From Gallionella sp. (GTDB taxonomy: Bacteria; Pseudomonadota; Gammaproteobacteria; Burkholderiales; Gallionellaceae), in NCBI GenBank assembly GCA_024641025.1, contig JAHEDW010000003.1:1-64000 (forward strand): 64,000 nucleotides of DNA. Reading direction: 5' to 3'. The notes under the pieces are model-generated. The model saw nothing but the letters and a program-made list of their open reading frames with translations. It searched no databases and was not told the origin of the DNA. The first letter of the stretch is position 1; every line of letters begins with the position of its first letter. The translations under genes were made by a program, and so were the position numbers. This document shows positions 444 through 4,917 of this stretch, piece after piece.

Positions 444-469
444 GTAACCTTTGTCCGGCCATGGACGAA
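444..469 (+). promoter_or_regulatory. Putative ECF sigma-factor promoter (GTAACC-N16-CGAA)
   Basis: gtaacc at 444-449, 16-nt spacer, cgaa at 466-469, about 140 nt upstream of the DUF2282 start. Matches the SigF-type ECF motif known from related Caulobacter heavy-metal operons (from memory). Confidence 0.6.
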
Positions 470-610
470 TATGTCAGTGCGTGGAGGAAATAATCCTGAA
501 TCCGCGTTTTATCAGAAAGTTTTATTTTGCTGCATGGAAGGCGAAAACTCTCCGACCCTTGGTTGGGGGCCAGCTCTCCGATATATCAACCAACTTAAGG
601 AGTTTCACCC

Positions 611-895
611 ATGAAAAATCATCAAATGTTATCAGTGGCGATCGGTGGCTTGCTCGCGCTTGGCTTGGCCGGCAATGCGAGTGCGGCCGATAAAAAGGTC
701 GAGATGGAAAAATGTTTTGGCATCGCCAAGGCGGGCATGAACGATTGTTCCAGCAACAAGAGCGCGCATTCCTGTGCCGGTCAGGCCAGCAAGAACAATG
801 ATCCGATGGACTTCGTTGCCGTACCAAAAGGCACTTGCGACAAGATCGCCGGCGGGATGTCCTCGGACAGCGGCATGATGAAGAAAGCCATGTAA
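611..895 (+). CDS. bufA1: DUF2282 (BufA1/bufferin-like) small secreted RiPP precursor
   Basis: Signal peptide ([26 protein letters not shown]), then a short core with four Cys ([32 protein letters not shown]); RBS aaggag; followed by DUF692 and DUF2063 genes. Confidence 0.88.
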
Positions 896-1737
896 TGAAA
901 AAGCCCGCAGCCGACACTTTGCCGCATATCGCAGGTATTGGCTTGCGGGCACCTCATTATCGCGAGGTATTGCAACAACTTCCCCCGATTGGTTGGGTGG
1001 AAGTGCATAGCGAGAATTTTTTCGGGGGCGGTGCGCCCCTGCACACCTTGCTCAAGGTGCGCGAACATTATCCGGTCAGCTTGCATGGCGTCGGGATGGG
1101 ACTGGCTTCCACGCAGCCGCTGGATCAGGCGCATTTGTCGGCATTGGTTCGATTGTGCGACGCGGTCCAACCTGCTGCGGTGTCGGAACATCTGTGCTGG
1201 AACGCTGCCGGAGGCATGGTCGTCAACGATCTGTTGCCATTCCCCTATACGCAGGCAGCATTGTCCAATGTGGCTGCACGCGTGGAACAGGTCCAGGAAA
1301 AGCTCGGTCGCCGCTTGCTGGTGGAAAACCTTTCCAGTTATTTGTCGTTCTCGCACAGCGAGATGAACGAAGGCGAGTTCCTGGCCGAGCTGTCGCGGCG
1401 CACCGGTTGCGGCATCCTGTTCGACGTCAACAATCTATACGTGAATGCGCGCAACCTTGGTGTGGATGCCGAGGCCTTTATCAAGGCGATGCCGGCTGAT
1501 GCAGTATCCGAATATCATTTGGCCGGATACAGTGAGCGTGACGGTTGTCTGGTGGACACCCACAACAATCCGGTCTATCCCGAAGTTTGGGAATTATATG
1601 AAACCGCGCTGCGACATATCGGGCCGCATCCCACATTGATCGAATGGGATGCAGACATCCCTGCATTGCCAGCCCTGATGGCAGAGGCTGCACAAGCGCA
1701 ATCGCGCATTGAGAAATGCTGTGAATACGTTGAGTGA
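895..1737 (+). CDS. bufB: DUF692 family multinuclear non-heme iron oxidative enzyme (MNIO, BufB-like)
   Basis: Motifs GIGLRAPHY, EVHSENFF, SLHGVGMGL, SEHLCW, FDVNNLYVNARN, HLAGY, DTHNNPV, IEWD. ATG at 895 overlaps the TAA of the preceding gene; ORF track gives an upstream in-frame start at 835. Confidence 0.9.
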   Translation: MKKPAADTLPHIAGIGLRAPHYREVLQQLPPIGWVEVHSENFFGGGAPLHTLLKVREHYPVSLHGVGMGLASTQPLDQAHLSALVRLCDAVQPAAVSEHLCWNAAGGMVVNDLLPFPYTQAALSNVAARVEQVQEKLGRRLLVENLSSYLSFSHSEMNEGEFLAELSRRTGCGILFDVNNLYVNARNLGVDAEAFIKAMPADAVSEYHLAGYSERDGCLVDTHNNPVYPEVWELYETALRHIGPHPTLIEWDADIPALPALMAEAAQAQSRIEKCCEYVE

Positions 1738-2503
1738 CGATCTGCTGACATTCGCGCACGCAATCATCCATGGTAAAGACCTGCCGCCGGAAGCTGGTTC
1801 TGTTTATCCCGCATACTCTGCCACGACTGCTATTGAGGTTTATCGCAACAATTATTACGGCAATCTTCATGACGCTTTGGCAGGAGCATATCCGGTCATC
1901 GAGCAACTCGTCGGCAAGGAATTTTTCTGGATGTTGACACGGCAATTCATCGGGCAACACCATTCCGGCAGCGGCAACCTGCATCATTACGGCGTAGAGA
2001 TGGCTAATTTTATTGCTGATTTCGAGCCTGCACAGGGTCTGGTATATTTGGCAGACATCGCGTCGCTGGAATGGGCTTGCCACTGCGCCTACTTTGCACC
2101 GGATGCCGATGCGCTGGATTTCGGCCGATTGTCGCAGGTATCACAAGATAAATACTCCAACCTGGTTCTGATCACACATCCTGCATGCCATGTGGTGCCG
2201 TCAAGATTTCCTATTGCGGAAATCTGGCATGCACATCAGCCCGGCACGCACGGCGATTTTCATATCGAACTGGATAGCGGACCAAGCACTGTGGTGGTAA
2301 GCCGCAAGGATGATGCTGTCCTGGCCAAAAAAATATCCGAAGCTGATAGCGAATGGCTGACACGAGTCAAGGCTGGAACCACACTTGGAGAAGCAACTGT
2401 CAGTACACTGGAAAGATTCCCGGACTTTGATTTGCAGTCCGGCTTGTCGAACCTGGTTACACAGGGTGTGTTTGCCGACTTCTATGTGAAGGGCTTGCCA
2501 TGA
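1709..2503 (+). CDS. bufC: DUF2063 domain protein (BufC-like RiPP recognition/partner protein)
   Basis: N-terminus typical of DUF2063 (VYRNNYYGNLHDALAGAYPVIEQLVGKEFFWMLTRQFI), adjacent to and overlapping the DUF692 gene. Confidence 0.85.
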   Translation: MRNAVNTLSDDLLTFAHAIIHGKDLPPEAGSVYPAYSATTAIEVYRNNYYGNLHDALAGAYPVIEQLVGKEFFWMLTRQFIGQHHSGSGNLHHYGVEMANFIADFEPAQGLVYLADIASLEWACHCAYFAPDADALDFGRLSQVSQDKYSNLVLITHPACHVVPSRFPIAEIWHAHQPGTHGDFHIELDSGPSTVVVSRKDDAVLAKKISEADSEWLTRVKAGTTLGEATVSTLERFPDFDLQSGLSNLVTQGVFADFYVKGLP

Positions 2504-2961
2504 ACTCGATGCTGCGTATGGTTCGGCATTACTACGCTGCTTCACATCTGCCTGAATATCTTGCGCCGGTTCTAGATTTGGTGCTGAGGTTGTTCCTCGC
2601 TGATGTATTCTTCAGGTCCGGTCTGACCAAAATAAAATCCTGGGACAGTACGTTATATCTGTTTCGAGATGTCTATCAGGTGCCTTTGCTATCGCCCGAT
2701 TTTGCTGCCTGTATAGCCACAGGTGCGGAACTGGGTTTGTCCGTGATGCTGGTATTGGGTTTGTTCGGGCGCTTCGCCGCAACCGGGTTGTTCATCCTGA
2801 ACGTGGTGGCGGTTATTTCTTACTCTGAACTCAGCGAGGCAGGACTCAGGCATCACCTTTATTGGGGACTGTTACTGGCCGTGCTGCTGATGATTAGTCG
2901 CGGGAAATTGTCGATAGACTATTGGCTTGAAAAGCGGATACAAGCAACTTCCGGGGCTTGA
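2500..2961 (+). CDS. DoxX family membrane protein
   Basis: ATGA overlap with bufC; DoxX-like (LDLVLRLFLADVFFRSGLTKIKSWDSTLYLF..YQVPLLSPDFAACIATGAELGLSVMLVLGLFGRFAATGLFILN). Confidence 0.85.
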   Translation: MNSMLRMVRHYYAASHLPEYLAPVLDLVLRLFLADVFFRSGLTKIKSWDSTLYLFRDVYQVPLLSPDFAACIATGAELGLSVMLVLGLFGRFAATGLFILNVVAVISYSELSEAGLRHHLYWGLLLAVLLMISRGKLSIDYWLEKRIQATSGA

Positions 2962-2982: not shown

Positions 2983-3246
2983 TTGCGGGATCATTCAGCA
3001 AAGGAGATAAAAATATTTATGGCATTGCACCAGCCAGTCTCCCTAATGCGAGAAATTGACGATTTACCTGCTGCCGCAGTCGCAATTGCCCAATCCCTCG
3101 ATATCGCTACCCTCGCAGAGGGTGTTGAAACTTACTGGCAGTTCGGCCTACTCAAAATTATGAGCTGCGACCAGATACAGGGATACTATTTCAGAAAACC
3201 ATTGCAGGCAGATGAATTCCTGGTTTACTACAACGCACACGTTTAA
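2983..3246 (+). pseudogene. EAL-domain C-terminal remnant (cyclic-di-GMP phosphodiesterase fragment)
   Basis: AVAIAQSLDIATLAEGVETYWQFGLLKIMSCDQIQGYYFRKPLQADEF matches the C-terminal third of EAL domains; the ExL active-site region and all upstream parts are missing. Confidence 0.65.
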
Positions 3247-4917
3247 TCAGAGGCTCCCCAGTTGCTGTCCATGCTCCCGCGTGGCGTGGAACTCGACTTT
3301 CGGCCAGCGTTCCTGAGCCAGGCGCAGGTTTACCCCGGTATCGGCGAGGTAGGCATAGTTGCCGTCAACGTCTTTGGCAAGGCGGTTCTGGTTAGCCTTC
3401 ACGAATTCATTGAGATGATTTTTATCAGTACAGTTCACCCAGCGTGCGGTGTGAATACCGGCGCGCTCGAACACCGCATCCACGCCGTACTCTGATTTCA
3501 AACGATGTTCGACCACTTCGAACTGCAATTGACCCACTGCGCCAATCAGCGGTGTATTGTCAGCCAGCGGTGAGAATACCTGTACGGCACCCTCCTCTCC
3601 CAGTTGGCGCAGGCCTTTCTCCAGCTGCTTGGCCTTCATCGGGTCGCGCAGTCGCGCGCGGCTGAACAACTCCGGCGCGAAGTAAGGGATGCCCTTGAAC
3701 GTGAGTGCTTCGCCTTCGGTGAGCACATCGCCGATCTGCAGCTGGCCGTGGTTGTGCACGCCGATGATGTCGCCTGCGTAAGCTTCTTCCATGCGGGTGC
3801 GCTCGTTGGCCATGAACGTCACTGCATTGGCGAGTTTCATTTCCTTGCCGGTGCGTCTGTGTTTGACCTTCATGCCGGGCGTGTAACGACCTGAACATAT
3901 GCGCAGGAAGGCGATACGGTCGCGATGATTCGGATCCATATTGGCCTGGATTTTGAACACAAAACCGGTGAAGGCAGCCTCGGTTGGTTGCACGATGCGT
4001 ACATCGGTTTCGCGCGGCAACGGAGCGGGAGCCCAGTCCACCAGCGCACGCAGCACTTCACGCACGCCGAAGTTGTTGATGCCTGAGCCGAAGAATACCG
4101 GGGATTGTTGCCCGTCCAGGAACTCGTGCAAATTGAAAGACGCGCCCGCGCCTTTGACCAGTTCGGTCTCGTCGCGCATGGTTTTCATTTCGATTGGACA
4201 TTGATTCGCTAATTGCTCGACCTGCGCACCTCGCAGGGTTTCGACTTCCTGACCAGCCTTGGCTTCGCCCGGAGAGAAGCGCAGCACCTCGTCATTCAGC
4301 AGGTGATATACACCCTGGAAACGTTTGCCCATGCCGATCGGCCAGGTTACCGGCGCGCATTTAATTTTCAGCACCGACTCGATCTCGTCCAGCACTTCCA
4401 ATGGGTCGCGAACTTCGCGATCCATCTTGTTGATGAACGTGATGATGGGTGTGTTGCGCAAACGGCATACTTCCAGCAATTTGATGGTCTGCGCTTCCAC
4501 GCCCTTGGCCGCGTCCACCACCATCACCGCCGCGTCCACCGCGGTCAGCACACGATAGGTGTCCTCCGAGAAATCCTGATGGCCGGGGGTGTCGAGCAGA
4601 TTGATCACGCAATCATCGTAGGTGAACTGCATCACAGAGCTGGCCACCGAGATGCCGCGCTGTTTCTCGATTTCCAGCCAATCAGAAGTTGCATGACGGC
4701 CGCTCTTGCGCGCTTTCACCGTTCCCGCCATTTGGATCGCGCCACCGAACAGCAGCAACTTTTCAGTGAGTGTTGTTTTGCCCGCATCTGGGTGGGAGAT
4801 AATCGCAAAAGTCCTGCGTCGTCTGACTTCACGCACAATATCGTTTCCATGTGCCACCGCATCAGTGATATCTGATGTGTTTGGTGCGGAGATTGTTGCT
4901 TGTGCAGAGTTATTCAT
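3247..4917 (-). CDS. prfC: Peptide chain release factor 3
   Basis: Translational GTPase with [37 protein letters not shown] and [20 protein letters not shown]. Confidence 0.96.

Follow-up and report, generated by a model that had tools for sequence, protein, structure and literature searches.

The operon at the start of the analysed DNA is, with a probability of about 90%, an ordinary and complete Buf1 (captophorin) cluster of a Gallionellaceae-like iron-oxidizing betaproteobacterium, one that would be transcribed by sigma-F and would buffer copper by the mechanism proposed below. It is preceded by an exact sigma-F promoter box that it has in common with related iron oxidizers, and this suggests how the operon is switched on. 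The class, its gene order, the peptide modification, the copper role and the sigma-F link are already published, and no new chemistry comes with this operon.

A complete bufferin operon at the contig start

The window, by which we mean the whole 64-kb stretch of DNA that was analysed, starts at base 1 of its contig in a 2.5-Mb assembly that is 91% complete. Its placement in Gallionellaceae or a closely allied group is based on the named sequences nearest to BufB. ORF calls and Pfam matches placed four intact genes, bufA, bufB, bufC and doxX, on the + strand at 611-2961. This is the DUF2282-DUF692-DUF2063-DoxX order of the original prediction, and the family search it had proposed returned a match for every gene. 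The first gene, bufA (611..895), encodes a Buf1/DUF2282 precursor of 94 aa (PF10048, E 2.7e-24). It is followed by bufB (895..1737), encoding a 280-aa MNIO (DUF692) bufferin maturase (PF05114, MbnB_TglH_ChrH/MNIO, E 1.4e-104), by the DUF2063/PME-type-1 partner gene bufC (1721..2503; PF09836, E 3.8e-19) and by doxX (2500..2961), encoding a 153-aa DoxX-family membrane protein (PF07681, E 9.2e-18). DoxX scored 64.7 bits against the HvfX-family model NF050144, under its cut-off of 80.

The junctions TAATG (893-897) and ATGA (2500-2503) are as previously described. An overlap of bufB and bufC had also been described correctly, but its length of 29 bp assumed the first possible start codon of bufC, TTG 1709. 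The bufC ATG of relatives aligns with GTG 1721, and in four of them (L044, L045, L048 and L059) the overlap with bufB is 17 bp. GTG 1721 is therefore the most likely start, giving an overlap of 17 bp here too.

The same core genes were found at 80 homologous loci. Together with the Pfam and NCBIfam scores, this rules out a chance or mis-called operon. Beyond this operon, no second MNIO or DUF2282/bufferin gene was found in the genome assembly.

Precursor, maturase and partner protein

The N-terminus of BufA, read by eye, has a basic and hydrophobic stretch followed by an A-S-A cleavage motif, which makes up a Sec-type signal peptide. Its four cysteines (Cys 35, 46, 55 and 76) are invariant across 24 aligned homologues. 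The product of this lineage had been thought probably undescribed; that holds in so far as this ortholog itself is unstudied, but the four-Cys pattern is the usual one. In characterised Buf1 peptides the central cysteines are converted to thiooxazoles and the outer pair is joined by a disulfide; after export, the peptide sequesters copper in the periplasm (PMC12452194). Buf1 products and related ones were grouped in a 2026 paper as captophorins, with 5-thiooxazoles (PMC13097082). By analogy with these members, the cysteines of this BufA would be modified and the peptide would bind copper.

BufB reached 371 bits against NF050167 (MNIO_BufB, "bufferin maturase"), exceeding the cut-off of 310, and matched PDB 3bww at E 8.5e-34; its identification as an MNIO (DUF692) modifying enzyme was accordingly borne out. 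Across 81 sequences, 66 BufB positions are conserved in at least 98%, among them H64, E98, H99, E144, N145, D177, N180, H208, D221, H223 and E250. Membership of the HvfB/oxazolin family was rejected, as BufB scored 221 against the HvfB cut-off of 360 and the precursor is DUF2282, not EGKCG.

A sequence search of the PDB with BufC returned a chance match only, and a fold search was needed. The AlphaFold2 model of BufC, built with 30 aligned homologues, had a mean pLDDT of 91.8. Its best Foldseek matches in the PDB were 3dee, the gonococcal partner (E 7.9e-6), and TglHI 8hci_A (E 8.3e-6). The predicted fold thus resembles 3DEE and TglI, in keeping with the DUF2063 partner originally proposed. 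BufC probably carries an RRE-like C-terminal domain, a reading based on the whole-fold match to 3dee; single RRE matches to BufC, such as TbiB1, were not significant. Precursor, four cysteines, a BufB score above the cut-off, partner fold, DoxX and bufABC order were all found, and every feature of the proposed bufferin-type architecture that can be read from the sequence is therefore present.

A sigma-F-type promoter box upstream of bufA

A sigma-F-type (ECF) promoter, GTAACC-N16-CGAA, lies at 444..469 on the + strand (-35 element 444-449, -10 element 466-469) and matches the Caulobacter sigma-F site exactly. The original prediction began at 444, which coincides with the -35 element, and made no mention of a promoter. 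In the 64-kb window the box is the only match, even with one mismatch allowed; a pattern search of the genome returned a second box-like match, with a spacer of 17, on another contig. GTAACC-N16-CGAA is also the sequence that sigma-F uses to transcribe the bufferin operons of Caulobacter (PMC3511200). In that organism copper induces the sigma-F regulon (PMC8224329).

The box is also preserved in L042, the nearest relative (84% BufB identity), inside an intergenic region that has diverged. The exact box was found within 400 bp upstream of 18 of 48 bufA genes from 43 related loci, while composition shuffles gave 0.01 and the reversed pattern 0. None of 40 more distant bufA genes carried the exact box. 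About half of the related loci lack it, so other promoters are able to drive buf operons. A search of the region ahead of bufA in the present genome revealed no sigma-70-like site.

Distribution of SigF, NrsF and a linked repair operon

Among 101 genomes of the family, the anti-sigma factor NrsF was found in 26 of the 35 that bear DUF2282 and in 19 of the 66 that do not (Fisher p 2e-5, uncorrected for relatedness). In genomes of the named relatives, NrsF accompanied the exact box in 16/17 and a box with one mismatch in 5/6, compared with 5/17 where no box was present (exact box versus none, Fisher p 2e-4, again uncorrected for relatedness). Neither NrsF nor a SigF orthologue was found in this 91%-complete assembly, in which the best match to SigF was an RpoE-like factor of 25% identity. 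The 1.6-Mb assembly of L042, which is the closest box-bearing relative, likewise yielded no NrsF.

Several relatives carry sigF-nrsF upstream of bufA, no more than about 5 kb away. Since bufA here begins 611 bp into its contig, and the assembly is incomplete, sigF and nrsF are probably located in missing sequence, which is the simplest account of their absence. At four other loci (L013, L026, L035 and L042) the contigs also stop shortly upstream of bufA; a repeat or duplicated buf copies may be breaking these assemblies.

In the relatives that were fetched, sigF-nrsF adjoins a divergent operon of periplasmic type, which encodes MsrB (SelR), a fusion of a DsbD-like membrane protein with thioredoxin, and MsrA. 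Pfam typing identified it in L172; in the other loci it was assigned from size and position. The buf genes are commonly a few kilobases away, and in several loci the repair operon has a sigma-F box of its own.

Flanking genes and second bufA copies

Neither an exporter nor a protease gene adjoins the operon, as had been noted before. Upstream, the contig start truncates a gene for a predicted envelope protein, of which the 3' end remains (3-347); this part has no Pfam match. Its product is 89% identical to a protein of ~345 aa in L042 that bears a signal peptide, and was not seen at other loci. Downstream are a 75-aa ORF (3019-3246), whose match is confined to the final ~45 residues of an EAL domain, and, on the minus strand, a translation GTPase-like gene (3247-4917).

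At L043, L046, L068 and L177, doxX is followed by a second bufA and then by a full GGDEF-EAL gene. Here only the 3' end of the GGDEF-EAL gene seems to be left, and the second bufA is absent. A second DUF2282 gene was located downstream of buf at L043:4212-4541, L046:3064-3522, L068:7121-7381 and L172:11585-11872. The copy in L172 adjoins a chemotaxis-receptor gene, and a sigma-F box lies between the two; elsewhere the neighbour is GGDEF-EAL. Among L085-L101, most loci from Aquitalea, Pseudogulbenkiania and Chromobacterium have a tandem pair of bufA genes ahead of bufB and no sigma-F box.

Relation to characterised systems

The closest counterpart is the Buf1 operon CC3254-CC3257 of the Caulobacter crescentus sigma-F regulon. 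It has the same DUF2282-DUF692-DUF2063-DoxX order, the exact GTAACC-N16-CGAA promoter and a DUF2282 precursor of similar length (93 aa, against 94 aa here). The Caulobacter operon is linked to sigF and nrsF, neither of which was found in the present assembly. The gig ("gold-induced genes") cluster of Cupriavidus metallidurans, which is induced by gold, silver and copper, is of the same kind by its description in PMC8224329. The HvfABC/oxazolin and gonophorin operons of Haemophilus and Neisseria likewise combine an MNIO enzyme with a DUF2063 partner and DoxX. They yield 5-thiooxazole products under the control of ECF sigma factors, together with MsrAB, but their precursors carry EGKCG repeats in place of DUF2282. 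Methanobactin MbnABC and pearlin TglAHI share the MNIO enzyme superfamily, and the BufC fold resembles TglI. Unlike this operon, they have precursors without a signal peptide, and other partners and products.

Proposed mechanism and alternative readings

From the characterised members we propose that metal stress in the envelope would release sigma-F from NrsF, and that free sigma-F would use the box at 444-469 to transcribe the operon. BufC would then hand BufA, still bearing its signal peptide, to the iron enzyme BufB, which would convert the central Cys 46 and 55 into 5-thiooxazoles; Cys35 and Cys76 would form a disulfide. Sec export and maturation by signal peptidase would follow, and the mature peptide would buffer periplasmic copper, with DoxX as a putative membrane accessory.

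The same peptide chemistry could instead serve mainly in envelope defence against oxidants such as hypochlorous acid, or against sulfur stress, copper binding being secondary. This is the main rival because control together with Msr is also seen in Neisseria and Haemophilus, although we consider it unlikely. The position of the relatives' sigma-F genes beside the msrB-DsbD/thioredoxin-msrA operon, with its own box in several loci, speaks for it. Haemophilus and Neisseria have MNIO operons, related to this one but distinct from it, that are regulated jointly with MsrAB, and HOCl induces that of Haemophilus (PMC7907618, PMC2893595). Against this, the Caulobacter Buf1 operons belong to the core copper response, the sigF mutant shows copper sensitivity (PMC8224329), and published bufferins bind copper. 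The association with Msr is compatible with either reading, because copper itself oxidises envelope methionines.

That iron-oxidizing bacteria use the peptide mainly to bind another metal, such as chromium, cadmium, gold or zinc, is very improbable. Caulobacter sigma-F does respond to chromate and cadmium (PMC3511200), and the Cupriavidus gig/buf genes to gold and silver as well as copper (PMC8224329), but the strong phenotype of the sigF mutant is seen with copper, not with chromium or cadmium (PMC8224329), and the Cys pattern of BufA is that of copper-binding Buf1. A loss of the sigma factor, which would leave this strain's operon silent or dependent on a different promoter, is also quite improbable. 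The lack of SigF and NrsF in the assembly would fit such a loss, as would the decay downstream (the EAL remnant and the missing second bufA). However, the box and all four reading frames are intact, the contig ends within the distance at which relatives carry sigF-nrsF, and the search for a sigma-70-like site upstream of bufA found none. Copper buffering under sigma-F is our preferred reading.

A possible joint regulon

We tentatively suggest that in Gallionellaceae the bufferin and the dedicated MsrB-DsbD/thioredoxin-MsrA repair operon form a joint sigma-F/NrsF envelope programme. One signal would evoke both copper buffering and methionine repair, and the bufferin would act mainly against metal-driven oxidation during iron oxidation. 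This is conceivable rather than probable. Limited literature searches returned no published statement on the distribution of the box in Gallionellaceae or its pairing with msrB-dsbD-msrA, and nothing on MNIO enzymes with methionine sulfoxide reductase and copper. The present findings carry the sigma-F control of bufferins beyond Caulobacter, where it was known, to iron-oxidizing betaproteobacteria that share the promoter sequence, and they suggest a testable joint regulon that would couple a metal-binding peptide to the repair of methionine sulfoxide.
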